Shown here: positions 12,523-25,296 of the stretch, one piece after another
How the letters are laid out: each line of letters starts with the position of its first letter
Numbering within the stretch: the first letter of the stretch is position 1
Assembly (NCBI RefSeq): GCF_001729485.1
Contig: NZ_CP017157.1
Span: forward strand, 3,472,001 to 3,536,000
Direction of reading: 5' to 3'
DNA: 64,000 nucleotides
Origin: Streptomyces lydicus
GTDB taxonomy: Bacteria; Actinomycetota; Actinomycetes; Streptomycetales; Streptomycetaceae
The notes under the pieces: model-generated
Told to the model about the DNA's origin: nothing
What the model saw: only the letters and a program-made list of their open reading frames with translations
Databases searched by the model: none
Program-made: the position numbers and the translations under genes

Positions 12523-12832
12523 GAGCGATTGTTCTACCGTGCGGCGAAATTCGTTGTCCATGGGGTTTGTTGCGACGAATTCGGTTGGGTGGGGTGTCGC
12601 CTGGGGGGCGGTGAGTTGTGCGTCCGGGACGTGGAGGCCCTGCCCCTGGGCCGCCATCGGCACTCCCGCTCAAGCCCAACGGCGCGACCGACCGGGCTGC
12701 CCTCGGCGAGCTGCTCGGGGGGCCCGGCCGCCCGTCCTGACGCGTACGCCGCGCCGCGCGTCCGGCCGTCGGAGCCGCCGCGCCGGATCAACTCCCCTTC
12801 TCAGAAACAGTGTTGTGTGACATATTACTGAG
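12523..12832. other. 310-bp divergent intergenic region
   Basis: This gap separates the PNPOx-like gene (minus) from the hydroxyproline operon (plus). It holds a candidate minus-strand promoter: TGGACA at 12555-12560, an 18-nt spacer and TAGAAC at 12531-12536. At its other end it holds the operator-like site described at 12812-12828. The middle (about 12600-12790) is GC-rich with no gene or strong hairpin that I can support. Confidence 0.5.
12812..12828 (+). promoter_or_regulatory. Candidate GntR operator before the hydroxyproline operon
   Basis: GTTGTGTGACATATTAC follows the pattern GTW-N3-TGACA-N3-TAC and lies only 4 bp before the GTG start of the first dehydrogenase subunit. A repressor here would block transcription or the first codon of a nearly leaderless mRNA. 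It shares GTGACAT--TAC with a site before the gntR gene at 17706-17722 (12 of 17 identical). The site lies in a local A/T-rich island. Confidence 0.5.
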
Positions 12833-14002
12833 GTGCCCACGAGATACGGTCACCACCTGGACACCTCCGATGTCGTCATCGTCGGGGCCGGTGCGGTCGG
12901 CGCCGCCTGCGCCTACTACGCCGCCCGGTCCGGCCTCTCCGTCACCGTCGTCGACCGTGGCGCGGTCGCGGGCGGCACCACCGGCGCCGGCGAGGGAAAC
13001 CTGCTCGTCTCCGACAAGGAGCCGGGCCCGGAACTCGACCTCGCGCTGCTCTCCGCCCGGCTGTGGCGCGAACTCGCCGACGCCCTTCCGCCGGAGATCG
13101 AGTACGAGACCAAGGGCGGGCTGGTCGTCGCCGGCGACGAGCCGGGCCTGGCCGCCCTGCGCACGCTCAGCGGGGCGCAGGCCGCGGCGGGCGTGGCGAG
13201 CAGCTACCTCCCGGCCGGCCGGCTGCAGGACGCCGAGCCCCATCTCGCGCCCGGCCTCGCCGGCGGCGTCCTCTACCCGCAGGACGCACAGGTCCAACCC
13301 GCCCTGGCCGCCGCGCACCTGCTGCGCGTCTCAGGCGCCCGGCTCCACCTGGGCGCCGAGGTCACCGCCGTCCTCCGGGGCCCCGGCGGAGCGGTCCGCG
13401 GCGTCCGCACCCCGCGCGGCGACCTCCTCGCGCCCGCCGTCGTCAACGCCACCGGCACCTGGGCCGGCGACCTCGCCGGGCTCGCCGGGGTGACCGTCCC
13501 GGTACTGCCGCGCCGCGGATACGTCCTGGTCACCGAGCCGTTGCCGCGCATCGTCCGGCGCAAGGTGTACGCCGCCGACTACGTCGCCGACGTGGCCAGC
13601 GACTCGGCCGCACTGCAGACCTCCGCCGTCGTCGAGGGCACCCCGGCCGGCCCGGTGCTCATCGGTGCCAGCCGCGAACGCGTCGGCTTCGACCGCACAC
13701 TCTCGGTCGAGGTGATCCGCCGGCTCGCCGCCCGGGCCGCGGCCCTCTTCCCCGTGCTGGCCGGGGTCCGGGTGATGCGTGCCTACCAGGGCTTCCGCCC
13801 CTACCTCCCCGACCACCTCCCCGCCATCGGCCCCGACCCGCGCGCCCCCGGCCTGCTGCACGCCTGCGGCCACGAGGGCGCCGGCATCGGCCTCGCCCCC
13901 GCGACCGGCCGGCTGATCGCCGCCGCGCTGACCGCGACCCCCGCACCCCTGGACACCGCGCCCTTCCGGCCGGACCGCTTCGTGGAGAGGAGCCCGGCAT
14001 GA
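12833..14002 (+). CDS. D-hydroxyproline dehydrogenase, FAD-dependent amine oxidoreductase subunit (DAO family)
   Basis: The 389-residue DadA/sarcosine-oxidase-like flavoprotein has an N-terminal GAGAVGAACAYYAA dinucleotide fold (GxGxxG at 18-23) and a C-terminal HACGHEGAGIGLAPATGRLIA FAD segment. It pairs with two overlapping downstream subunits, a small 2Fe-2S protein and a second flavoprotein, as in the heteromeric D-hydroxyproline dehydrogenase of Pseudomonas (LhpBEF). That enzyme oxidises cis-4-hydroxy-D-proline to 1-pyrroline-4-hydroxy-2-carboxylate. The GTG start lies 4 bp after an operator-like site and lacks a ribosome site. Sarcosine or D-proline oxidation would be the alternative, but the epimerase and deaminase downstream favour hydroxyproline. 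Confidence 0.85.
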   Translation: MPTRYGHHLDTSDVVIVGAGAVGAACAYYAARSGLSVTVVDRGAVAGGTTGAGEGNLLVSDKEPGPELDLALLSARLWRELADALPPEIEYETKGGLVVAGDEPGLAALRTLSGAQAAAGVASSYLPAGRLQDAEPHLAPGLAGGVLYPQDAQVQPALAAAHLLRVSGARLHLGAEVTAVLRGPGGAVRGVRTPRGDLLAPAVVNATGTWAGDLAGLAGVTVPVLPRRGYVLVTEPLPRIVRRKVYAADYVADVASDSAALQTSAVVEGTPAGPVLIGASRERVGFDRTLSVEVIRRLAARAAALFPVLAGVRVMRAYQGFRPYLPDHLPAIGPDPRAPGLLHACGHEGAGIGLAPATGRLIAAALTATPAPLDTAPFRPDRFVERSPA

Positions 14003-14325
14003 GCCGCCGCCGTCGCCGAACCCCCGCCGCCCTCGTACGCGCCCGTCCGGAACCGGCGTTCGAGATCAGCCTGGACGGCAGACCCCTGCCCGCACTGCCC
14101 GGCCAGAGCCTCGCGGCCGCGCTCTGGGCGGCCGGCGTGCTCTCCTGGCGGCGCACCCGCGGCAGCGGGCGGCCGCGCGGCGCCTTCTGCGGCATCGGCT
14201 CCTGCCACGACTGCCTGGCCACCGTCAACGGCACCCCCAACCAACGGGCCTGCCTGGTCCCGGCCCGGCCGGGGGACGCCGTCACCACCCAGGAGGGACA
14301 CGGCCGTGCCGGCCTCGCCGTCTGA
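13999..14325 (+). CDS. D-hydroxyproline dehydrogenase, small 2Fe-2S subunit
   Basis: The 108-residue ferredoxin-fold protein (HcnA/SoxA-N type) has four cysteines, C64, C69, C72 and C85, in FCGIGSCHDC and a later RACL, suited to one [2Fe-2S] cluster. It begins EISLDGRPLPALPGQSLAAALW, the usual start of this subunit class. The ATG overlaps the stop of the first subunit (ATGA) and its end overlaps the next subunit by 20 nt, implying coupled translation in fixed ratio. The arginine-rich N-terminus before residue 20 is unusual. Confidence 0.84.
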   Translation: MSRRRRRTPAALVRARPEPAFEISLDGRPLPALPGQSLAAALWAAGVLSWRRTRGSGRPRGAFCGIGSCHDCLATVNGTPNQRACLVPARPGDAVTTQEGHGRAGLAV

Positions 14326-15718
14326 CCCCCGGGGCTCCGTCCACGACCTCGCCGTCATCGGGGCGGGGCCGGCCGGGCTCGCCGCCGCCGTCACCGCGGC
14401 CGACCTCGGACTGACCGTGGCCCTGCTCGACGCCGCACCCCGCCCCGGCGGCCAGTTCTACCGGCAGCCGGCACCCGGCCTCGGCGCCGCCCGCCCGCAG
14501 GCCCTGCACCACGCCTGGGGCGCCTTCACCCGCCGCGCGGCCCGCCTGGCGGCACACCGCGCCACCGGTCGGGTCCACCACCTCGCCGAGCACCACGTCT
14601 GGGCCGTCACCCGGGCCACCGCCGACCCGGAACACTGGGCCGTCCACGCGGTGACCGGACCCGACGGTGCGCACGGCCCCGCCCCGGAGCTGACCGCACG
14701 TCATGTGCTGCTCGCCACCGGGGCGTACGAGCGCCAGCTCCCCTTTCCCGGCTGGACGCTGCCCGGTGTCGTCGGTGCGGCCGGCGCGCAGGCGATGCTC
14801 AAGGCCGGTCTGGTGCTGCCGGGGCGGCGGATCGTGGTCGCGGGCAGCGGGCCGCTGCTGCTCGCCGTCGCCGGTTCGCTGGCCGCCGCCGGAGCGCGGG
14901 TCCCGGTCGTCGCCGAGGCGGGCGACTACCGGGCGTACGCCCGCAGTCCCCGCGCCCTGGCCGCCCAGCCCCGCAAGCTCGTCGAGGCGGCGGGCCACGC
15001 CGCCACCCTGGCCCGGCACGGCGTACGCCTGCGGACCCGGAGCGCGGTCACCGCCGTGCACGGCACCGACCGGGTCGAGGTCGTCACCCTGACCCGGCTC
15101 GACCGCGACTGGCGGCCGCTGCCCGGCACCGGCGTACGCATCCCGTGCGACGCCCTCGCGGTGGGCCACGGCCTGGTGCCGCAACTGGAGCCGGCCACCG
15201 GACTCGGCTGCGCCACCCGCCCCACGCCCGACGGCGGCCACGCCCTGGTCGTCGACGGGCGGCAGCGGACCACGGTCGCGGGGATCTGGGCGGCGGGGGA
15301 GACCTGCGGTGTCGCCGGCGCCGAACTCGCCTTCATCGAAGGCGAGTTGGCGGCCCGCTCGATCGCCGGCCGGGGTCCGGTTGCGGCGCTGCGGCGGCGC
15401 CGGGACCGGTTGCGCCGGTTCGCGCTGACCATGGCCGCCGTCCACGCGCCGCGCCCCGGCTGGTCCGACTGGCTGCGCACCGACACCGAGGTGTGCCGCT
15501 GCGAGGAGGTCACCGCCGGCCGCATCCAGGACGCCGTCACCGGCCTCGGCGCCCGCGACGGCCGCACCGTCAAACTCCTCACCCGCGCCGGCATGGGCTG
15601 GTGCCAGGGCCGGATGTGCGGCACCGCCGTGACACACCTCGCGGGGGACACCGACCCCGCGCCCACCCGCCGTCCCCTGGCCTGCCCGGTCTTCCTCGAC
15701 CACCTCACCGACGGCTGA
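14306..15718 (+). CDS. D-hydroxyproline dehydrogenase, pyridine-nucleotide-disulfide-type FAD subunit with BFD-like domain
   Basis: The 470-residue protein has GAGPAGLAAAVTAADLGL near residue 20 and an NAD-like GSGPLLLAVAGSLAAAGA motif in the middle. A C-terminal bacterioferredoxin-like iron-sulfur domain has cysteines C397, C399, C433 and C438 (CRCEE and CQGRMCG). This architecture is the alpha subunit of heteromeric opine, sarcosine and hydroxyproline dehydrogenases. It probably passes electrons from the amine-oxidising subunit through the iron-sulfur centres to the respiratory chain. The GTG start lies inside the previous gene, consistent with subunit coupling. Confidence 0.86.
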   Translation: MPASPSDPRGSVHDLAVIGAGPAGLAAAVTAADLGLTVALLDAAPRPGGQFYRQPAPGLGAARPQALHHAWGAFTRRAARLAAHRATGRVHHLAEHHVWAVTRATADPEHWAVHAVTGPDGAHGPAPELTARHVLLATGAYERQLPFPGWTLPGVVGAAGAQAMLKAGLVLPGRRIVVAGSGPLLLAVAGSLAAAGARVPVVAEAGDYRAYARSPRALAAQPRKLVEAAGHAATLARHGVRLRTRSAVTAVHGTDRVEVVTLTRLDRDWRPLPGTGVRIPCDALAVGHGLVPQLEPATGLGCATRPTPDGGHALVVDGRQRTTVAGIWAAGETCGVAGAELAFIEGELAARSIAGRGPVAALRRRRDRLRRFALTMAAVHAPRPGWSDWLRTDTEVCRCEEVTAGRIQDAVTGLGARDGRTVKLLTRAGMGWCQGRMCGTAVTHLAGDTDPAPTRRPLACPVFLDHLTDG

Positions 15719-15751
15719 GACACCTTCGTCCGCACCCCAAGGAGACTCCGC

Positions 15752-16651
15752 ATGACCACCCGCACCCGCCCCTGGCACGGCATCATGGTCGCCACCACCC
15801 TGCCCCTGCGCGACGACCTCTCCGTCGACCACGACGCCTACGCGGCCCAGGTCGCCCGGCTGCTCGCGGCCGGCTGCGACGGCGTGGTGCCCAACGGGTC
15901 GCTCGGCGAGTACCAGACCCTCACCGAGGACGAACGCATCCGGGTCGTGCAGACGGCCGTGGCGGCCGCGGGCGGCGACGGCGACCGGGTGATGCCGGGC
16001 GTCTCGGCCTACGGCAGCGCCGAGTCGCGCCGCTGGGCCGAGCGGGCCGCCGAGGCCGGCGCCGGCTCCGTCCTGCTGCTGCCGCCCAACGGCTACCGTG
16101 CCGGCCCGGCCGCGGTCCGCGCCCACTTCGCCGAGGTCGCCGCGGCCGGCGTCCCGGTCGTCGCCTACAACAACCCCTTCGACACCAAGGTCGACCTCAC
16201 CCCGCAGCTGCTCGGCGCGCTGCACGCCGACGGCAGCATCGTGGCCGTCAAGGAGTTCAGCGGCGACGTCCGCAGGGCGTACGAGATCGCCGAAGTCGCC
16301 CCGGACCTGGACCTGTTGATCGGGGCGGACGACGTGCTGCTGGAACTCGCCCTCGCCGGGGCGGTCGGCTGGATCGCCGGCTACCCCAACGCGCTGCCCG
16401 CCTCCTGCGCCGCCCTCTACCGCGCCGCGACCGCCCACGACCTCGACACCGCGCTGCCCCTGTACCGCGCCCTGCACCCGCTGCTGCGCTGGGACTCCAA
16501 GCCCGGCTTCGTGCAGGCGATCAAGTTCTCCATGGACCTCGCCGGACACCACGGCGGCCCCACCCGGCCGCCCCGCCTCCCGCTCGCGGACGAGGAGTTG
16601 GGCGTGCTCCGCGCCGCCACCGAGAAGCTGCTCGCCGACGGCCACCACTGA
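15752..16651 (+). CDS. DapA-family deaminase/dehydratase, likely 1-pyrroline-4-hydroxy-2-carboxylate deaminase
   Basis: The 299-residue dihydrodipicolinate synthase-fold protein has its Schiff-base lysine at K167 (AVKEFSGD) and the supporting tyrosine at Y139 (VAYNNPFDTK). It opens with GIMVATTLPLRDD in place of the DapA-type substrate loop. In hydroxyproline catabolism a DapA-fold enzyme converts 1-pyrroline-4-hydroxy-2-carboxylate to alpha-ketoglutarate semialdehyde and ammonia. An AAGGAGA ribosome site lies 6 nt before the ATG, 33 bp after the last dehydrogenase subunit. Sugar-acid aldolases share the fold, but the operon supports the deaminase role. Confidence 0.85.
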   Translation: MTTRTRPWHGIMVATTLPLRDDLSVDHDAYAAQVARLLAAGCDGVVPNGSLGEYQTLTEDERIRVVQTAVAAAGGDGDRVMPGVSAYGSAESRRWAERAAEAGAGSVLLLPPNGYRAGPAAVRAHFAEVAAAGVPVVAYNNPFDTKVDLTPQLLGALHADGSIVAVKEFSGDVRRAYEIAEVAPDLDLLIGADDVLLELALAGAVGWIAGYPNALPASCAALYRAATAHDLDTALPLYRALHPLLRWDSKPGFVQAIKFSMDLAGHHGGPTRPPRLPLADEELGVLRAATEKLLADGHH

Positions 16652-16664
16652 GAGGAGCAGCCCC

Positions 16665-17666
16665 GTGCGCACCCGCCACGTCTTCCACGCCGTCGACTCC
16701 CACACCGAGGGCATGCCCACCCGGGTCATCACCGGCGGCGTCGGCACCATCCCCGGCGCCACCATGGCCGACCGCCGGCGCCACTTCGCCGAGCACCGCG
16801 ACGACCTCCGCACCCTGCTGATGTACGAGCCGCGCGGCCACGCCGCCATGAGCGGCGCCATCCTCCAGCCGCCCACCCGGCCCGACGCCGACTACGGCGT
16901 CCTCTTCATCGAGGTCTCGGGGTTCCTGCCGATGTGCGGGCACGGGACGATCGGCGTGGCCACCGTCCTGGTCGAGACCGGCATGGTGGAGGTGCGCGAA
17001 CCGGTGACGACCGTGCGGCTCGACACCCCCGCCGGACTGGTCACCGCCGAGGTGCGGGTGCGGGACGGCGCGGCCACCGCCGTCACCCTCACCAACGTCC
17101 CCGCGTTCTGCGCCGCACTGGACCGCAAGATCACCGTCCCCGGATACGGCAGCATCGGCTACGACCTCGCCTACGGCGGCAACTTCTACGCCGTCGTCCC
17201 GCTCGACAGCGTCGGACTGCCCTTCGACCGGGCCCGCAAGGACGACATCCTCGCCGCCGGGCTGGCGCTGATGGACGCGGTCAACGCCACCGACCGGCCG
17301 GTGCACCCCGAGGACGACCGGATCGGCGGCCTCAAGCACGTCTACTTCGCCGCGCCCGGGTCCGACGCCACCCGCTCCCGGCACGCCATGGCCATCCACC
17401 CCGGCTGGTTCGACCGCTCGCCGTGCGGCACCGGCACCTCGGCCCGGATGGCGCAGCTGCACGCCCGCGGCGAACTGCCGCTGCACCAGGACTTCGTCAA
17501 CGAGTCGTTCATCGGGACGGAGTTCACCGGCCGGCTCGTCGGGGAGACCACCGTCGGCGGGCTGCCGGCCGTCGTCCCCACCGTCACCGGGCGCGCCTGG
17601 CTGACCGGCACCGCCCAGTACTTCCTCGACCCGGCCGACCCCTTCCCGGCGGGCTTCCGGCTCTGA
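16665..17666 (+). CDS. 4-hydroxyproline 2-epimerase (proline racemase family)
   Basis: The 333-residue protein has both catalytic cysteines of the family: C91 in MCGHGTIG and C254 in SPCGTGTSA. Two cysteines mark true epimerases/racemases; the related dehydratases have a threonine or serine instead of one. The enzyme would convert trans-4-hydroxy-L-proline to cis-4-hydroxy-D-proline, the substrate of the dehydrogenase upstream. The GTG start follows GAGAGGAG and lies 13 bp after the deaminase stop, so it is the fifth gene of the operon. Confidence 0.9.
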   Translation: MRTRHVFHAVDSHTEGMPTRVITGGVGTIPGATMADRRRHFAEHRDDLRTLLMYEPRGHAAMSGAILQPPTRPDADYGVLFIEVSGFLPMCGHGTIGVATVLVETGMVEVREPVTTVRLDTPAGLVTAEVRVRDGAATAVTLTNVPAFCAALDRKITVPGYGSIGYDLAYGGNFYAVVPLDSVGLPFDRARKDDILAAGLALMDAVNATDRPVHPEDDRIGGLKHVYFAAPGSDATRSRHAMAIHPGWFDRSPCGTGTSARMAQLHARGELPLHQDFVNESFIGTEFTGRLVGETTVGGLPAVVPTVTGRAWLTGTAQYFLDPADPFPAGFRL

Positions 17667-17705
17667 CCGCGCGGCGGCGGCACCGGGCACTGCCAGGCGG
17701 TTTGC

Positions 17706-17722
17706 GTAACGTGACATTGTAC
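17706..17722 (+). promoter_or_regulatory. Candidate GntR operator before its own gene
   Basis: GTAACGTGACATTGTAC is an imperfect palindrome (GTA-N3-TG-A-CA-N3-TAC) centred 56 bp before the gntR start, in an A/T-rich patch. It matches the reverse complement of a site before the collagenase gene at 14 of 17 positions and the site before the dehydrogenase operon at 12 of 17. Autoregulation of this kind is common for FCD-type GntR proteins. Confidence 0.55.
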
Positions 17723-17769
17723 GCTGGCACTCCGCGCCGACTCGCAGGGCCATACGGAGGGCCACCACC

Positions 17770-18486
17770 ATGGGTGAACTCAAGCACCGCAGCCTGATCA
17801 CCGCTCAGGAGCGGCTGCGCGACCAGGTCGCCCACCAGCTGCGCGCCGCCCTGATCGCCGGCGAACTCCGGCCGGGGGCCGTCTACTCGGCGCCCGGCCT
17901 CGCGGCGGACTTCGGCGTCTCCGCCACCCCGGTGCGCGAGGCGATGCTCGATCTGGCCCGCGAGGGGCTGGTCGAGCCGGTGCGCAACAAGGGTTTCCGG
18001 ATCACCGAGGTGAGTGAGCGCGACCTCGACCAGTACACCGAGATCCGTGCGCTGATCGAGGTCCCGGTCGTCGGCCGGATCACCCGCACCGCCACCCGCG
18101 AACAGCTGGAAGCGCTCCGGCCGGTCGCGCTGGAGATCGTCACCGCCGCCCGCGCCCACGACCTCATCGGGTACCTGGAGGCCGACCGCCGCTTCCACCT
18201 CGAACTGCTGGGCCTGAGCGGCAACGACCGCCTCGTCGAGACGGTGGGCGAGCTGCGCAAGCGGTCCCGCCTGTACGGCCTGACCCGCCTCGACGAGCAC
18301 GACCAGCTGCTGCCGTCCGCCGAGGAACACCTGGAGCTGCTCGACGTGATGCTGACCGGGGACGCCGCGGCGGCCGAGGCGTGCATGGCCCGTCACCTGG
18401 GCCACGTCCGCTCCCTGTGGGCGCAGGGCCGCGAGGAGACGCCCGCCCCGCCCGCGCAGCGCCGGCCGGCGGCCCGTCAGGGCTGA
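17770..18486 (+). CDS. GntR-family regulator, FCD subfamily
   Basis: The 238-residue protein has an N-terminal winged helix-turn-helix (LRDQVAHQLRAALIAGELRPGAVYSAPGLAADFGVSATPVREAM) and a C-terminal FCD effector domain. The latter includes metal-ligand-type residues in YLEADRRFHLELL and MARHLGHVRSLW. FCD regulators usually repress operons for amino-acid or sugar-acid use and release DNA on binding the substrate. A GGAGGG ribosome site precedes the ATG. Standing between the hydroxyproline operon and the collagenase gene, it most likely senses hydroxyproline or an intermediate and controls both. Confidence 0.87.
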   Translation: MGELKHRSLITAQERLRDQVAHQLRAALIAGELRPGAVYSAPGLAADFGVSATPVREAMLDLAREGLVEPVRNKGFRITEVSERDLDQYTEIRALIEVPVVGRITRTATREQLEALRPVALEIVTAARAHDLIGYLEADRRFHLELLGLSGNDRLVETVGELRKRSRLYGLTRLDEHDQLLPSAEEHLELLDVMLTGDAAAAEACMARHLGHVRSLWAQGREETPAPPAQRRPAARQG

Positions 18487-18612
18487 TCGCCCGCACGGGG
18501 GTTGACGGGGCGTCTGTGAGAGTCGGTCGCCCCGGGCGGCCGTGGGCGGGCTGATCCGGGTCGGGCCGTGAGGGGGAAACTTTACCCGGGCCCGGTTCCT
18601 GAAGGGTTGTCA

Positions 18613-18629
18613 GTGCAATTTCACATTAC
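18613..18629 (-). promoter_or_regulatory. Candidate GntR operator before the collagenase gene
   Basis: Read on the minus strand, GTAATGTGAAATTGCAC matches the site before gntR at 14 of 17 positions. It is centred 95 bp before the collagenase start. The flanking DNA (18600-18645) is unusually A/T-rich for this region and probably contains the collagenase promoter. Confidence 0.5.
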
Positions 18630-18715
18630 TATGTTACGGGTCACACCTCGTGGAGTGATGGCGGCACCCCTCGCCCCTCACCCACCCAACCCCCCACCCC
18701 CTCCTGGAGGTTCAG

Positions 18716-21058
18716 GTGTCCCCTTCGCGTACCCGACGCAGACTCCTGCTGACCGCGACCCTCGTCGCCACCCTCGCGATGCCGTTCGTCCAGACCGCCG
18801 GGGCGGCACCCCGCGGGACGGCGCCGGCCGCCCCCGCCCGGCAGCCGCACCCGGCGCCCCGGACCGCCGACCGGACCGCCGGCGATCCCCACGACCGGGC
18901 CCAACGCCTGTCCCGTACACCCCGGTTCAGCGCCACACCCGCACCCGCGCCCCGCGCCGCCACGACCGACGGCCGCATACCGGGCCCGCAGACCGGCCCC
19001 GCCGCCCCCGGCCACCGGGCCGCACCCGCCGTCGCCCCCTGCACCCTCGACGGGGTCACCGGCCTGAACCCCGAGCAGTTCGCCGACTTCCTCGCCGACC
19101 CGGCCGTCACCGCCGACGGCTGCCTGCGCGACCTCATCTGGACCTGGGACCCCCGGCTGGCTCCCGTCATGTCCGACGCCCATGTGCAGGCCGTCGCCCG
19201 GCGCATCGCCGCCCTCGCCGCCTCCCACGACGGCACCGACGCCGGCCACCTCTACGAGATGTTCACGTACCTGCACGCGGTGGCCTACCAGGACTTCTCA
19301 CACGACGAGATCGACACCACCGACACCCCGACCGTCACCGCGGTCCGCCGCGCGGTCGACGCCTTCGGCGCCGCCGCCCACACCTTCGACGTGACCCGGA
19401 CCAACGCCGACACCCTGCGCGAGGCCCTGTACGCCATCAGCGGGCCGGGCGGACGCCAGTACCAACTCGGGCTGATCCAGCGGGTCCTGGCCACCCTCGA
19501 CGCCGCCCACCCCGCCACCCACAAGGACCCGGCCTGGGGCAACGCCGCCCTCGCCGCCCTCTCGGTGAACTACCTGGGCGTCTACCCCGGCAACAAGGAC
19601 ACCGCCTTCCGGGCCGCGGTCGTCGCCGACCCCGCCTACCGCGCCGCCTTCAAAGCCTTCGCCGATTACACCCACCTCAAGGGCACCGCCAACGCCTGGG
19701 CGGTCCGCGACGCGCTCGGTGAATACGGTCGCTTCGGCCAGATCGACTCCCTCAAGCCGGCGATCGTCACCGACCTCGGGGCCCTCCTGACCACGACCGT
19801 GCGCAACTTCGGCGAGGGCAGCGACCCCTGGGCCAAGGTCGTCGGCTGGCTGGGCACCTTCGACGCCTGTAAGCCCTACGGCGTCTGCAAGACCGACATC
19901 GAGAAGCGGATCTTCCCGTACACCTACTCCTACGACAACGGCGCCATCAAGGTGCGCACCGCCCTCGACCGCGCCACCGTCGACCAGCTGTACTACGCGT
20001 CCAAGCAGGTCAAGGCCCAGTTCCACCGGGTGCTCGGGACCACCGAACCGCTGGCCGGCGACCCCAACACCACGCTCACCATCGTCCTGTACGCCTCGCG
20101 CGCCGACTACGAGGTCTACCACCCGCTGCTCACCGGGATGGGCACCAACAACGGCGGCGTCTACATCGAGCAGGGCGCCACCTTCTACACCTACCAGCGC
20201 CGCGTCCCCCAGGACTCCAGCCTCACCCTCGAAGAGCTCTTCCGGCACGAGTACGTCCACTACCTCAACGGCCGGTTCGCCGTGCCCGGTTCCTTCGGCG
20301 AGGGCCCCTGGTACGAGGGCGACCGCACCACCGCCATGGACGAGGGCAGCGCGGAATTCTTCGACGGCTCGACCCGTGACGACGGCATCGCCGTACGGCG
20401 GTCACTCGTCCGCGACATCATCGCGGACACCGCGGGCGGCACACCGCGCATGAGCATCAACGCCTTCCTGCACGCGACCTACGACCACGACGGCTTCCGC
20501 TTCTACTCCTACGCCGGGACGTTCTTCGAGTTCCTGTGGCGCGAACACCCCGCCAGGCTGCAGGAGATGTACCGGTACCTGCGCGCCGACGACCCCGCGG
20601 GCTTCGACGCCTGGCGCACCCGGCAGAGCACCGACGCCGCCCTCCAGCAGCAGTACGACGCCTTCCTCGACGCCCAGATCGCCCACGTCGACGACCTCTT
20701 CGTACCGCACACCGCCTTCACCCCCAACGGCAGCCTGACGTACGCCGACGTCGCCGGGGTGCGCGCGGCCTTCGCCTCGGCCACCGCCGCCACCCCCGCC
20801 TGCCAGGACAACGGCGACCCGGCCCACGGCCGCTTCCTGTGCACCGGCCGGATCACCGCCAACCTCAGCGACTCGACCAGCCCCGACCAGGTCTTCAAGG
20901 ACATGTCGGAGACCGTCGACTACTTCCTGCTCGACCGCGCCCGGCCCGCGGCGAACAACCTCGCCGACATGAACTGCACCTTCGGCCCCACCACCGTCTG
21001 GTCCTCGGGCCGAGCCGGCACCGCGGACTACAGCTGTGAGGGACCGCTGCGGCGCTGA
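18716..21058 (+). CDS. Secreted microbial collagenase (peptidase family M9)
   Basis: The 780-residue preprotein opens with a signal peptide (RTRRR, a hydrophobic stretch and AGA, cut near residue 30). A proline/alanine-rich propeptide-like segment, a collagenase activator-type helical domain and the M9 peptidase domain follow. Zinc site: HEYVH at 511-515, with the downstream glutamate in DEGSAEFF (about 543). The end has cysteine pairs and an NxxS-rich domain (about 690-780) in place of the PKD/CBD repeats of clostridial enzymes. It degrades native collagen outside the cell. The GTG start follows a GGAGG site. Adjacent hydroxyproline genes and a shared operator-like site tie it to use of collagen as food. 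Confidence 0.9.
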   Translation: MSPSRTRRRLLLTATLVATLAMPFVQTAGAAPRGTAPAAPARQPHPAPRTADRTAGDPHDRAQRLSRTPRFSATPAPAPRAATTDGRIPGPQTGPAAPGHRAAPAVAPCTLDGVTGLNPEQFADFLADPAVTADGCLRDLIWTWDPRLAPVMSDAHVQAVARRIAALAASHDGTDAGHLYEMFTYLHAVAYQDFSHDEIDTTDTPTVTAVRRAVDAFGAAAHTFDVTRTNADTLREALYAISGPGGRQYQLGLIQRVLATLDAAHPATHKDPAWGNAALAALSVNYLGVYPGNKDTAFRAAVVADPAYRAAFKAFADYTHLKGTANAWAVRDALGEYGRFGQIDSLKPAIVTDLGALLTTTVRNFGEGSDPWAKVVGWLGTFDACKPYGVCKTDIEKRIFPYTYSYDNGAIKVRTALDRATVDQLYYASKQVKAQFHRVLGTTEPLAGDPNTTLTIVLYASRADYEVYHPLLTGMGTNNGGVYIEQGATFYTYQRRVPQDSSLTLEELFRHEYVHYLNGRFAVPGSFGEGPWYEGDRTTAMDEGSAEFFDGSTRDDGIAVRRSLVRDIIADTAGGTPRMSINAFLHATYDHDGFRFYSYAGTFFEFLWREHPARLQEMYRYLRADDPAGFDAWRTRQSTDAALQQQYDAFLDAQIAHVDDLFVPHTAFTPNGSLTYADVAGVRAAFASATAATPACQDNGDPAHGRFLCTGRITANLSDSTSPDQVFKDMSETVDYFLLDRARPAANNLADMNCTFGPTTVWSSGRAGTADYSCEGPLRR

Positions 21059-21078: not shown

Positions 21079-23493
21079 TCAGGGGTCCGGCAGATCGAGC
21101 CGCCGGGTCGTACCCGGTGCGATGCCGAACGACCGCTCCCGCAGCCGCACCCGCACCGCCGCGTTCTCCGACTCCGGCACCGCGATCCGCACCTGCTCGG
21201 CGTGGATGCGCAGGTCGATGTCCCAGTGCTGGCGGAAGCGGATGCGCACGGCGAACTTCGACAGCTGGGGGAGCGGTGCCGGGTCCAGCCACAGGGTCCG
21301 GTCGCGGGTCTCCAGACCGGTCAGGCCCCGCTGGACCAGGTCCAGGGTGCCGGCCATCGCGCCGAGGTGGATGCCCTCCGCGGTGGTGCCGCCCTGGACG
21401 TCCGCGACATCGCCGGTCAGCGCCTCCTCGCAGTACGTCCAGGCGTCGGGCCGGTGGACCCGGGCCAGGACCCAGGCGTGGACCAGGGCGCTGAGGGTGG
21501 AGCCGTGGCTGGTGCGGCGCAGGTAGTAGTCGACGGTGTCGCGCCAGATGTCGTCGTCGAGCGGACAGCCCAGCCGGCGGAAGACCGTGGCGAGTTCCGC
21601 CGGTGAGAAGAGATAGCCGAGCATCAGCACATCGGCCTGCTTGGAAGCCTGGTAGTGATTGACGGTGTCACCCTCGGCCTCCAGGATCCGGTCCAGCCGC
21701 CGGATGTCGCCGTAGCGCTGCCGGTAGCCGTCCCAGTCGAGCTCGGCCAGGTCCTGGTAGCCCGCGAACTGGCTGATCACACCCTGGTGGTAGGGAACGT
21801 GCAGCAGACGGGAGACGTCCTCCCAGCGCTCCGGCTCGTCGGGGGTCAGCTCGATCCGCTCGTAGAGCTGCCGCCGATGGGCCTCGGGAAGGGTGTGGCA
21901 CAGTTCCAGCGCGCGCACCAGCACCCAGGCCGCCGTGACGTTGGTGTACGCGTTGTCGTCCACGCCGGGTTCCGCCGCCCCCGGGTAGCCGTCGTGGTAC
22001 TCGTCGGGGCCGACCACCCCGCGGATGCGGTACCGGCCGAGGACGGGGTCCCAGAGCGCGGCGGACGCCCAGAACCGCGCGATCTGCAGCAGCATCTCGG
22101 CGCCCCTGGTGTGCAGGAACTCCGTGTCGCCGCTGGCCTGTCCGTACTGCCAGACGTTGTAGGCGATCGCCGAGCCGACGTGGTGCTGCAGCCGCGAGAA
22201 ATCGGGCAGCCAGCGGCCGGAGCGGGGATTGAGATGGAGCTCCTGGGTCTCCTCACGGCCGTCGCCGGCGCTCTGCCACGGGTACATCGCGCCCGCCCGG
22301 CCCGCCTGCGCCGCCGCGTGGCAGGCGGCCGGCAGCCGCCGGTAGCGGTAGGTGAGCAGCGCCCGCGAGACCTGCGGCAGGTGCAGGTTCAGGAACGGCA
22401 GCACGAACAGCTCGTCCCAGAACACGTGCCCGCGGTACGCCTCCCCGTGCAGGCCCCGCGCCGGCACCCCGACGTCGAGCTCCGCGGTGTGCGGCGAGAG
22501 CGTCTGCAGCACGTGGAAGAGGTGCAGCCGCAGGATCCGCCCGGCGTCCCCGGGCACCTCCAGCTTCGCCTGCCGCCACAGGTTCTCCCAGGCCCGCCGG
22601 TGCGAGGCGAGCAGCTGACGGAAGTGCGCGGCCTGCACCACGCAGTCCACCGCCGCGTGCCGGGGGCTCTCGATCGCCGGGTCACGGGAGGTGTACAGGG
22701 CCACCGTCTTGTCGACCACCGCCGTCGCCCCCGGCGCGAGCGGCAGCGTCAGCGCGTGAGCGGCCCGGAGCACGGTCAGCCGGGGCCGGGGCGTCACCCC
22801 CCGCCCGGGGGTGGCCCGGATCCGCTCGGCCAGCGCGATCCGGATGTCCGAATCGACGGTCCGGCAGCTCAGCCACACCGTGTCGGCCCCCTCCGCGCCG
22901 GTCTCCCACCCCCGCAGATGCTGATCGGCCAGACCGCGGTACCGCGCGACGCCGGTGTTGCGGACCGCGCCGTCGAGGCACGACTCGACCTCCACCTCAC
23001 CCGCCCACCCCTCGGCCGTGAACGACGTGCGCTGCAGGGCCAGATGGGGCTCGCTCATGTGCACCAGGCGGCGCTGCTCCACGGTCAGCCGCCGGCCGTC
23101 CTCGTCCTCGTAGACCGACGACCGGCTCAGGGTGCCGTGCCGCAGGTCCAGGGTCTGCCGGTGCGCCGTCAGATGGGCGTGCCCGGGGTGCAGCCAGGGC
23201 CCCGGCCCCGCGTCGCTGGGCAGGATCCGGTACCGCAGCGGCAGCCAGTTGGGCAGGTTGACCATGTCCTCGTTCTCGACGGCGCGGCCCGCCACCGTGG
23301 AGGTGAGCCGGTTGTAGCAGCCCGCCGCGTAGGTGCCCGGGTAGTGCGCCGGCCCGGAGAGCACCTCGCAGGCCGCGCCGCGGGTGACGAAGTAGCCGTT
23401 GCCCAGGGCGCAGAGCGTCTCGCGCAGCCGTTCCGCGTTCGCGTCGTACCCCTCGTACGTCCAGGTCCAGGCGCGGGTGCCGGCGGTCGGCAT
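21079..23493 (-). CDS. Glycoside hydrolase family 65 disaccharide phosphorylase
   Basis: The 804-residue protein starts with ALGNGYFVTRGA, the N-terminal beta-sandwich of GH65. The general acid is probably E498 in GPDEYHDG. Late motifs YQASKQADV and RRTSHGSTLS (phosphate-binding loop) mark a phosphorylase rather than a hydrolase. Such enzymes cleave maltose, trehalose, kojibiose or similar sugars with phosphate to beta-glucose 1-phosphate and glucose. It overlaps a beta-phosphoglucomutase gene by one base at ATGA, which would channel beta-glucose 1-phosphate into glycolysis. Which disaccharide is used cannot be told from sequence. Confidence 0.88.
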   Translation of the reverse strand: MPTAGTRAWTWTYEGYDANAERLRETLCALGNGYFVTRGAACEVLSGPAHYPGTYAAGCYNRLTSTVAGRAVENEDMVNLPNWLPLRYRILPSDAGPGPWLHPGHAHLTAHRQTLDLRHGTLSRSSVYEDEDGRRLTVEQRRLVHMSEPHLALQRTSFTAEGWAGEVEVESCLDGAVRNTGVARYRGLADQHLRGWETGAEGADTVWLSCRTVDSDIRIALAERIRATPGRGVTPRPRLTVLRAAHALTLPLAPGATAVVDKTVALYTSRDPAIESPRHAAVDCVVQAAHFRQLLASHRRAWENLWRQAKLEVPGDAGRILRLHLFHVLQTLSPHTAELDVGVPARGLHGEAYRGHVFWDELFVLPFLNLHLPQVSRALLTYRYRRLPAACHAAAQAGRAGAMYPWQSAGDGREETQELHLNPRSGRWLPDFSRLQHHVGSAIAYNVWQYGQASGDTEFLHTRGAEMLLQIARFWASAALWDPVLGRYRIRGVVGPDEYHDGYPGAAEPGVDDNAYTNVTAAWVLVRALELCHTLPEAHRRQLYERIELTPDEPERWEDVSRLLHVPYHQGVISQFAGYQDLAELDWDGYRQRYGDIRRLDRILEAEGDTVNHYQASKQADVLMLGYLFSPAELATVFRRLGCPLDDDIWRDTVDYYLRRTSHGSTLSALVHAWVLARVHRPDAWTYCEEALTGDVADVQGGTTAEGIHLGAMAGTLDLVQRGLTGLETRDRTLWLDPAPLPQLSKFAVRIRFRQHWDIDLRIHAEQVRIAVPESENAAVRVRLRERSFGIAPGTTRRLDLPDP

Positions 23494-24254
23494 CAGTCCT
23501 CCCCGGCCGTCAGCAGCTCGCCCGGGTCGGCCACCACCACGTCGGCGCCACGGCGGCGCAGCGCGGCGGCCGCGGCCCGTCCCGCCGTCCGGTCCACGCC
23601 GACCACCAGGCCGAAGCCACCGCGCCGCCCCGCCTCGACGCCGGCGAGTGCGTCCTCCACGACAGCGGTGTCCCGGGGCGGGACACCCAGCCGGCGGGCC
23701 GCCTCCTCGAAGAGCGCCGGGTCCGGCTTGCCCGGCAGCCGCAGCCGGCGGGCCGCGTTGCCGTCCACCACCGCGTCCAGCAGCGGCAGCACCCCCGCCG
23801 CGGCCAGCAGCGCGGTGGCGTGCCGGGACGCCGACACGGCGGCGCGCGGCATCCGCTCCTGCCGCAGCACCCGCAGCAGCCGGACGGTCCCGGGCCAGAC
23901 CGTGACGCCGCCGGCCTCCAGACGCGCGGTGAACAGCTCGTCCTTACGTGCCGCGACGGCGTGCACGGTGTCCGTGCCCGGCGGGTCGCCCTCCTCGCCC
24001 AGCGGCAGGTCCAGGCCCCGGGCGGCCAGGAACGCCGCCGCGCCGTCCAGCCGCGCGCGGCCGTCGACGTGCCGCAGGTAGTCCTGCACCGGGTCGAACG
24101 GGCGCTGCCCGCCCGCGGCCGCCAGCGCGGGGTCGAAGGCGTCCTTCCAGGCCGCGGCATGGACGCGGGCGGAGTCGGTGATGACTCCGTCCGTGTCGAG
24201 GACCACGGCCCCGATCGAGTGCAGGCACCCGGCCAGGGACGGCACACCGGTCAT
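23493..24254 (-). CDS. pgmB: Beta-phosphoglucomutase (HAD superfamily)
   Basis: The 253-residue HAD hydrolase-fold protein has the nucleophile motif LDTDGVITD (D20, D22), a cap domain with DGRARLDG, AVSASRHA (motif II serine), KPDPALF (motif III lysine) and VVEDALAGVEAG (motif IV). That set is standard for beta-phosphoglucomutase, which turns beta-glucose 1-phosphate into glucose 6-phosphate through the 1,6-bisphosphate. It is the first gene of a two-gene operon with the GH65 phosphorylase. Its ATG at 24254 faces a universal stress protein gene. Confidence 0.87.
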   Translation of the reverse strand: MTGVPSLAGCLHSIGAVVLDTDGVITDSARVHAAAWKDAFDPALAAAGGQRPFDPVQDYLRHVDGRARLDGAAAFLAARGLDLPLGEEGDPPGTDTVHAVAARKDELFTARLEAGGVTVWPGTVRLLRVLRQERMPRAAVSASRHATALLAAAGVLPLLDAVVDGNAARRLRLPGKPDPALFEEAARRLGVPPRDTAVVEDALAGVEAGRRGGFGLVVGVDRTAGRAAAAALRRRGADVVVADPGELLTAGED

Positions 24255-24303
24255 GGCGACGTTCCGTTCGTCGGTGTCCTTCCATGTCACCACGGGTCGG
24301 CGC

Positions 24304-24333
24304 CCGGGGCGCGCCCCGGACCGCCGGCCGTCC
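24304..24333. promoter_or_regulatory. Two abutting palindromes in a divergent promoter region
   Basis: CCGGGGCGCGCCCCGG (24304-24319) is a perfect 16-bp palindrome. It is followed by GGACCGCCGGCCGTCC (24318-24333), palindromic at 14 of 16 positions. They lie in the 154-bp gap between pgmB and the UspA gene. The second resembles a DosR/DevR box in its GGAC/GTCC ends but has 8 rather than 4 central bases. GC-rich palindromes arise by chance here, so confidence is low. Confidence 0.25.
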
Positions 24334-24408
24334 CTGGCGGGCCCGTCGGGGCGGGGTGACGATGGAGGGGCCACCGGGAACCCGGCGACCGAGGAAGGCG
24401 GTGCGGCC

Positions 24409-25296
24409 ATGGAACGGCCCCTGGTCGTGGGCGTCGACGGCTCGGACTCCGCCCTCCGGGCACTCGACTGGGCGGTGGACGAGGCGGCGCTGCACGGGCT
24501 CGGGCTGCGGGTGGTGCACGCCAGCACCTGGGAGCGGTACGAGGGGCCGGCAGCCGCCGGGGACCAGGAGGACACCGGGGAGCGGGGGCTCGCGGAGGGC
24601 ATCGTCGGCGCCGCCGTGGAACGGGCCCGGTGCCGCAACCCGGCCCTCCGGGTCGACGCCGAGGTCCTGGCGGACGACGCGGTCAGCGCCCTGCTGCGGG
24701 AGGGCAACCTCGCCTCCCTGCTGGTCCTGGGCTCCCACGGGCACCGCGAACTCACCGGCCTGCTGCTGGGCTCGGTCGGCCCGGCGGTGGCGGCCCGGGC
24801 CCGGTGCCCGGTCGTCGTGGTGCGGGGCGACGCGGCCGGCCTCGCGGGGGAGCACCGCTGCGTCCTCCTCGCGGTGGGCGAGCCGGGGGAGAGCGCGGAG
24901 GCGGTGCGCTTCGCCTTCCGGGAAGCGGCCGCCCGGGGATGCATGCTGAAGGCGGTACGGGCCTGGCACGGCCCCGCCCACGAGCGGACCGGCCCGTCCG
25001 CCGGGGTGGCCGACAGCTACCACGAGCGGCGGGCGACCGAGCTGATCGACCGGGCGCTGGACGAGGTGGCCGCGGCGCATCCGGCGGTGCGGGTCCGCCG
25101 CACCGCCGTGGCGGGGCCGGCGCACAAGGTGCTGGTGCACCGCGCCGCCGCCGCGGACCTGCTGGTCATCGGCTCGGGCCGGCACCACGGCTATTTCGGG
25201 CTGCCGCTCGGCCGGCTGGCGCACTCCGCCCTGTGCCACGCCGCCTGCCCCGTGGCGGTCGTCCCGCAGCGCGATCAGGGCGCCCCCGACGGGTAG
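24409..25296 (+). CDS. Universal stress protein, tandem UspA domains
   Basis: The 295-residue protein contains two UspA domains, residues about 4-145 (VVGVDGSDSALRALDWAV ... LGSHGHRELTGLLLGSVG) and 148-290 (ending GSGRHHGYFGLPLGRLAHS). Each has the G-2x-G-9x-G-S/T type ATP-binding motif in full or slightly altered form. Tandem UspA proteins respond to hypoxia and stationary phase in actinomycetes. The ATG is preceded by GAGGAAGG. The gene runs opposite to pgmB and converges on pncB, next to a minus-strand stress block that has its own tandem UspA gene. Confidence 0.88.
   Translation: MERPLVVGVDGSDSALRALDWAVDEAALHGLGLRVVHASTWERYEGPAAAGDQEDTGERGLAEGIVGAAVERARCRNPALRVDAEVLADDAVSALLREGNLASLLVLGSHGHRELTGLLLGSVGPAVAARARCPVVVVRGDAAGLAGEHRCVLLAVGEPGESAEAVRFAFREAAARGCMLKAVRAWHGPAHERTGPSAGVADSYHERRATELIDRALDEVAAAHPAVRVRRTAVAGPAHKVLVHRAAAADLLVIGSGRHHGYFGLPLGRLAHSALCHAACPVAVVPQRDQGAPDG

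Follow-up and report, generated by a model that had tools for sequence, protein, structure and literature searches.

In Streptomyces lydicus, a single repressor of the GntR/FCD type, HypR, very probably controls an M9 collagenase gene together with the operon for hydroxyproline (Hyp) breakdown. We give this reading, a compact HypR regulon under joint control, a probability of about 0.9. The locus lies in a stretch of 64,000 nucleotides (the window; positions 3472001–3536000 of the 8.2-Mb single-contig genome, GCF_001729485.1, NZ_CP017157.1), in which positions 12812–21058 hold seven genes, all on the + strand: six for enzymes and one for the regulator. The gene families, the operators, the conservation of these operators and the overlap of one of them with a promoter at the collagenase gene are observed in this strain. 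We assign the sites to a single regulon because they are conserved among relatives and because of experiments in Streptomyces coelicolor (Kotowska et al., 2019; PMC6608401).

The circuit is already known in its main lines. In the parts of PMC6608401 compared here, to which all statements about that paper refer, S. coelicolor HypR (SCO6294) binds TACAATGTCAC in its own promoter, as mapped by footprinting. It also binds, and in vivo represses, the promoters of SCO6289–6293, of the M9 collagenase SCO5912 and of kgd. L-Hyp induces promoters of the regulon; those named in the figure legend are hypR and SCO6289, and the collagenase promoter has no figure of its own in these parts. A strain deleted for the epimerase gene no longer grows on L-Hyp. 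Streptomyces lividans grows on trans-4-hydroxyproline (PMC4113996). A preliminary description of the window had joined collagen cleavage to hydroxyproline use in one regulon, which the conserved operators and the S. coelicolor counterpart bear out. It had also held the system to be undescribed, which the published binding, repression and L-Hyp induction contradict. We found no further paper devoted to this regulon in the open-access literature besides PMC6608401; the name HypR occurs four times each in PMC9739823 and PMC13170358.

Operator sites and their conservation

Three related 17-bp sites had been proposed, upstream of the dehydrogenase operon (12812), of the gntR gene, here hypR (17706), and of the collagenase gene (18613), and all three were located there (Table 1). 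Comparison by eye gave the same identities as the preliminary description: 14 of 17 positions between the hypR and collagenase sites and 12 of 17 between the dehydrogenase and hypR sites. Read on the other strand, the hypR site contains, letter for letter, the sequence footprinted in S. coelicolor, and it is the sole match to TRCAATGTSAC in the whole genome. The operon operator ends 4 bases upstream of the GTG taken as the start of the beta-subunit gene, in line with the remark in PMC6608401 that HypR binds beside the transcription start there. At the collagenase gene, the operator fills the spacer between the −35 and −10 elements of the only promoter-like site in 18500–18720 (shuffles: mean 0.0, sd 0.2), an arrangement that we counted for HypR control of the collagenase. 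Its TTGTCA is preserved in the collagenase upstream blocks of 11 of 15 relatives. The same promoter search found no sigma-70-like site at the operon or hypR operators. We dropped the idea of a clear dyad symmetry, since two centres fit 50 sites about equally well (mean pairing 0.60 at 10.5 and 0.57 at 14.0); the symmetry is likewise undecided in PMC6608401.

The search pattern proposed in the preliminary description fared less well than its sites. With up to two mismatches it has 7 matches in the window (5 places, two counted on both strands) against 3.5 ± 1.9 in shuffled sequence, and 6 of 100 window shuffles reach 7. Across the genome it occurs exactly only at 12812 and 17706. Allowing one mismatch yielded 16 matches, and the reversed control 17, which is chance level; the pattern is too narrow and not significant, and the collagenase site departs from it by 2 bases. 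We regard this pattern as weak evidence for the sites, and their conservation as the strong evidence.

Conservation was assessed in relatives, the best 80 of 355. The nearest of these 80 loci comes from Streptomyces lydicus NRRL ISP-5461; its regulator is 99% identical to that of the window. Upstream regions were kept only where the upstream DNA was complete, which left 15 of 43 collagenase, 59 of 61 dehydrogenase and 62 of 65 deaminase matches; a collagenase match also had to start within the first 150 residues. Upstream of hypR, the core TRCAATGTCAC is exact in 75 of the 80 relatives and has one mismatch in 5. With a matrix built from the hypR promoters of the 80 relatives only (15 distinct 20-mers), scores above the 99th percentile of shuffles were reached by 14 of the 15 upstream regions of collagenase genes and 47 of the 59 of dehydrogenase genes, and by none of the 65 epimerase upstream regions used as a control. 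Deaminase and alpha-subunit upstream regions were judged by mismatch count rather than by this matrix. The pattern GTRMWATKTCACR, composed after the sites had been seen, is exact in 58 of 59 dehydrogenase upstream regions and has one mismatch in the other, at the same position as the operon operator of the window. No match closer than 2 mismatches was found in 65 epimerase and 60 alpha-subunit upstream regions.

Two genome-wide searches led to a second collagenase gene. The pattern GTRNWATKTSANA, composed from sites in the upstream regions of relatives, occurs four times in the genome; its reversed control does not occur. The four places are the operon, the collagenase gene of the window, a site near an HTH_3 gene and a site upstream of a second M9 gene. 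A 22-bp sequence model was built from 50 sites, a training set that includes these sites themselves or near copies, and 150 of its 233 candidates were scored. At E ≤ 10 it matched the operon (0.05), the window collagenase gene (0.10), hypR (0.31) and the second collagenase gene (1.8). This second gene (genome positions 5145195–5147195) encodes an M9 protein of 666 residues, 24% identical to the window collagenase, and is unlinked, 1.66 Mb from hypR. Its operator, at 5145092, lies about 90 bp upstream (G000:C1:5145092–5147195, the same as L103:6093–8196). It was found blind, and we counted it for a joint HypR regulon. The site at G000:C1:1914075–1914087 (L102:5576–5588) was rejected as a member: it stands beside the HTH_3 frame and is absent from the matches of the 22-bp model. 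It lies inside a TTTGACATTGACAATGTGTCAAA inverted repeat and is probably the HTH_3 regulator's own control site.

HypR and M9 collagenases across the genus

We surveyed 150 genomes of the genus, with a threshold of E ≤ 1e-60 for HypR and the Pfam cut-off for M9. The M9 counts cover 110 of 115 matches and 87 of 89 genomes, five matches below the cut-off being excluded (G139, G140 and the second matches in G007, G104 and G085). HypR is present in 120 of the 150 genomes and an M9 gene in 87. Both are present in 86 genomes, HypR only in 34, M9 only in 1 and neither in 29 (Fisher p 2e-12, kinship ignored). HypR thus accompanies M9 in 86 of 87 M9-bearing genomes, against 34 of the 63 others. Several genomes (G092, G057, G148, G030, G090, G064 and others) have two HypR-like genes, and M9 sometimes stands beside only one of them, as in G092.

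An M9 gene was called linked if it lay within 20 kb of hypR on one contig, which was true of 55 of the 110. Of the other 55, 29 lie on another contig than hypR, so that no call on linkage is possible for them; 25 are distant on the same contig, and one is in a genome lacking HypR. We sorted M9 proteins into groups A, B and C, which are bands of Pfam score and not tree clades. In band C, the type of the window collagenase, 32 of 42 genes are linked and 8 of the other 10 are on another contig. In band A 23 of 38 genes are linked, and in band B, the type of the second collagenase, none of 30. Among six M9 proteins compared directly, the window protein is 24–27% identical to the other five, and bands B and A are 48–54% identical. 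Of four band A proteins scanned, two have both PKD and PPC domains.

Upstream regions of M9 genes were scored with a matrix made from hypR, dehydrogenase and deaminase sites and no collagenase site, with column-permuted matrices as the null. An operator above the 99th percentile precedes 45 of the 54 scored M9 genes whose linkage was not established (25 of 29 in band B, 12 of 15 in A and 8 of 10 in C) and four of the five linked band A genes tested. The stricter 99.9th percentile leaves 9 B, 6 A and 8 C genes without established linkage and 2 linked A genes. One 26-base upstream region was dropped, leaving 54 of 55. Four more regions are short (494–1566 bases): three of them (494–559 bases) lack a site and the fourth has one; a further short region (516 bases) also lacks a site. 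One of the four band B genes without an operator belongs to G005, the sole M9-bearing genome without HypR.

Genes of the locus and their variation among relatives

Family matches confirm the gene content given in the preliminary description, collagenase and hydroxyproline-breakdown genes with a GntR/FCD regulator (Table 1).

Table 1. Genes and predicted control sites of the S. lydicus locus (window positions)
Feature	Position	Strand	Basis or remark
HypR operator (predicted) of hydroxyproline operon	12812–12828	−	common orientation GTAATATGTCACACAAC; conserved position in relatives
D-hydroxyproline dehydrogenase beta subunit, DAO family, 389 amino acids	12833–14002	+	family match; GTG start according to the list of open reading frames
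D-hydroxyproline dehydrogenase gamma subunit, Fer2_4, 108 amino acids	13999–14325	+	family match
D-hydroxyproline dehydrogenase alpha subunit, Pyr_redox_2 + Fer2_BFD, 470 amino acids	14306–15718	+	family match
DapA-fold enzyme, probable pyrroline-4-hydroxy-2-carboxylate deaminase	15752–16651	+	family match
4-hydroxyproline 2-epimerase, Cys-Cys type, proline-racemase family, 333 amino acids	16665–17666	+	family match, both cysteines
HypR operator (predicted) of hypR	17706–17722	−	contains TACAATGTCAC
hypR, GntR/FCD repressor (putative), 238 amino acids	17770–18486	+	family match
Promoter-like TTGTCA-17-TATGTT of collagenase gene	18607–18635	+	17-bp spacer is the operator
HypR operator (predicted) of collagenase gene	18613–18629	+	GTGCAATTTCACATTAC
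M9 collagenase, ColH-like peptidase core, HEYVH + Glu, 780 amino acids	18716–21058	+	family match, zinc-site residues

The genes for the DAO, Fer2_4 and Pyr_redox/Fer2_BFD proteins overlap one another and together encode what is predicted to be a three-subunit D-hydroxyproline dehydrogenase. The epimerase has its two cysteines in MCGHG (from residue 90) and SPCGTG (from residue 252). Its best NCBIfam model is that for 4-hydroxyproline epimerase, at 357.8 bits, just below the equivalog cut-off of 376. The regulator gene directly follows the operon on its 3' side. The closest solved relative of the regulator by E-value is 3fms, which we take to be TM0439, the template used in the S. coelicolor HypR paper. 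On a count by eye, the regulator has every DNA-contact residue named in PMC6608401 (Ser50, Thr52, Arg55, Arg71, Asn72), each shifted by one position.

The collagenase gene starts 230 bp 3' of hypR. Its protein matches Peptidase_M9 (PF01752) at 154 bits against a cut-off of 26, and the zinc site is kept, with HEYVH at residue 511 and a Glu 32 residues on, at 543. The best solved relatives by sequence are ColH, ColT and ColG. In a Pfam scan, the M9_N match was weak, no accessory domain was found, and no other family matched C-terminal to the M9 match (from residue 635). The protein is predicted to be secreted, from an N-terminus that resembles a signal peptide as judged by eye. It appears to represent an M9 lineage other than that of SCO5912, which is probably band A; this assignment is based on domain lists and not on the SCO5912 sequence. 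On the 3' side of the collagenase gene, at 21079–24944, the − strand carries two genes, one of the GH65 glycoside family and one HAD/beta-phosphoglucomutase-like. In 3 of the 80 relatives (L016, L017 and L019) the GH65 gene likewise lies close to the locus.

A comparison of gene order, suggested in the preliminary description, showed that a collagenase beside hypR recurs in the genus and is not special to this strain. In 43 of the 80 relatives the fetched flank includes all or part of a window-type collagenase (a 46-residue match only in L071); 36 of these have it upstream of hypR, and 7 have it downstream, the arrangement of the window. A further operator (at most one mismatch to GTRMWATKTCACR) precedes the deaminase gene in 50 of 62 relatives, by 34–99 bp where listed. 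It is found, for example, in L018, L019 and L021–L025, and is missing in S. lydicus L016 and in the window. Its presence hints that deaminase and epimerase form a second transcription unit in the species that carry it.

The interval between epimerase gene and hypR also varies. Among 66 loci with an epimerase match, 17 have an aldehyde dehydrogenase of the L021 type, 29 a pair of the L033 type (racemase-family and reductase-like genes), 3 both the dehydrogenase and the pair, 5 just the reductase-like gene and 12 none. The best NCBIfam model of the aldehyde dehydrogenase (L021:6566–7960) is alpha-ketoglutaric semialdehyde dehydrogenase, below its cut-off; this enzyme would supply a step missing from the locus in the window. 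In L033 (5937–7945) the interval holds a second proline-racemase-family gene and a Delta1-pyrroline-2-carboxylate-reductase-like gene. The best models of their products are trans-3-hydroxy-L-proline dehydratase and Delta1-pyrroline-2-carboxylate reductase, both below cut-off. Since the racemase-like protein retains two cysteines, a 3-hydroxyproline route is only suggested.

Proposed mechanism, alternatives and known systems

Our model is repression by promoter occlusion with joint release on Hyp breakdown. Without substrate, HypR would sit on operators overlapping the promoters of the operon, hypR, the window collagenase gene and the second collagenase gene and keep expression low. When collagen is present, basal collagenase would free Hyp-rich peptides, and hydroxyproline would enter the cell. 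The epimerase would convert L-Hyp to D-Hyp, the three-subunit dehydrogenase would oxidise this, and deamination would yield alpha-ketoglutarate semialdehyde (KGSA). A pathway metabolite, probably neither L-Hyp nor D-Hyp, would then relieve HypR, and collagenase and hydroxyproline use would rise together. The effector is probably a downstream intermediate of Hyp breakdown, as the authors of PMC6608401 also expect: in their hands L-Hyp and D-Hyp left HypR–DNA binding unchanged, and Ni, Cu and Zn at 5 mM abolished it.

Several observations weigh against a joint HypR regulon. Binding, repression and induction would carry over to this strain by analogy with S. coelicolor, and the basis here is sequence. 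The hypR-only matrix beats the highest shuffle in just 17 of 59 dehydrogenase regions, and the genome-wide E-values of single sites (0.05 to 1.8) are weak. Shared ancestry makes the counts among relatives non-independent. The 33-bp gap upstream of the deaminase gene in the window holds no operator. In this genome kgd has one site, with 2 mismatches (L106:1183), and was not among the matches of the 22-bp model (150 of 233 candidates scored); we rejected it as a clear target in this strain, the site being degenerate.

It is barely credible that the sites are chance resemblances. The statistics of the preliminary pattern, at chance level in the genome with one mismatch and equalled by 6 of 100 window shuffles, would fit that explanation, but the operators are conserved in 80 relatives and the controls are negative (0 of 65 epimerase regions). 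HypR might instead govern only the operon and itself, with the collagenase under general starvation control and its site read by another factor or being operator-like promoter sequence. We consider this improbable. The collagenase site does differ from the hypR site at 3 of 17 positions, and it sits in a promoter spacer, a place where the sequence may be under constraint for other reasons. Against this, the same operator precedes M9 genes of separate lineages and at other genome positions, 86 of 87 M9-bearing genomes have HypR, and in S. coelicolor HypR binds and represses the collagenase promoter (PMC6608401). Somewhat less unlikely, yet still doubtful, is that the locus serves mainly for free soil Hyp or Hyp from plant and algal walls, with the collagenase incidental or minor. 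PMC6608401 names plant and algal walls and root nodules as further Hyp sources, and among the 120 genomes with HypR, 34 lack an M9 match above cut-off. The skew of HypR towards M9-bearing genomes speaks against it, as does the ColH-like core with its full zinc site; plant Hyp as a further source stays compatible with joint control of collagenase and operon by HypR.

Beyond this strain, we lean towards viewing HypR as a collagen switch of the whole genus. The same operator would serve two or more deeply separate M9 lineages (24–27% identical in compared pairs), each adjoining hypR in many species, and M9 carriage goes almost always with HypR. Many relatives' loci add a KGSA-dehydrogenase-like gene or a 3-hydroxyproline-route-like pair, which would make a whole-collagen utilisation island. 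A regulon from one strain is extended here towards a testable rule for the genus, in which collagenases of varied lineage and position appear to be switched by the repressor of the hydroxyproline pathway. This offers a simple route to finding and inducing collagenases. The inducer question stays in view because neither L-Hyp nor D-Hyp released HypR from DNA (PMC6608401).

The closest known system is the HypR regulon of S. coelicolor A3(2) (SCO6289–SCO6294, SCO5912 and SCO5281; PMC6608401). Both species have the operon order beta, gamma, alpha, deaminase, epimerase and then hypR, the same footprinted sequence in the hypR promoter, and operators at the operon and at an M9 collagenase gene. The match of window genes to SCO6294 and SCO5912 is based on gene order, contact residues and published domain lists. 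SCO5912 lies at a distant locus, whereas the window collagenase gene follows hypR by 230 bp. The published domain list of SCO5912 includes PKD and PPC, which the window collagenase, of another M9 lineage by the domain lists, lacks. The S. lydicus genome has two M9 genes with an operator and a degenerate site at kgd, a target in S. coelicolor. Going beyond the parts of PMC6608401 compared, as far as sequence comparison indicates, are the compact linkage, the different collagenase lineage, the operator in the spacer of the collagenase promoter, two operator-bearing collagenases in one genome, the genus-wide association and the deaminase operator in relatives.

More distant systems share parts of the locus. 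The hyp cluster of Sinorhizobium meliloti and the lhp cluster of Pseudomonas aeruginosa have the epimerase, D-Hyp oxidation and deaminase steps in common with the window, but no collagenase is named for either in the parts of PMC6608401 compared. According to the same source, S. meliloti has a GntR/FadR-type HypR, like the window, with a different dehydrogenase, and P. aeruginosa has an AraC-type activator, unlike the window. The clostridial collagenases ColH, ColT and ColG share with the window protein the peptidase domain (residues 395–667 in the ColH alignment) and the HEXXH motif followed by Glu 32 residues on; the window protein differs from them in its weak M9_N match and in having no accessory domain that we could find.

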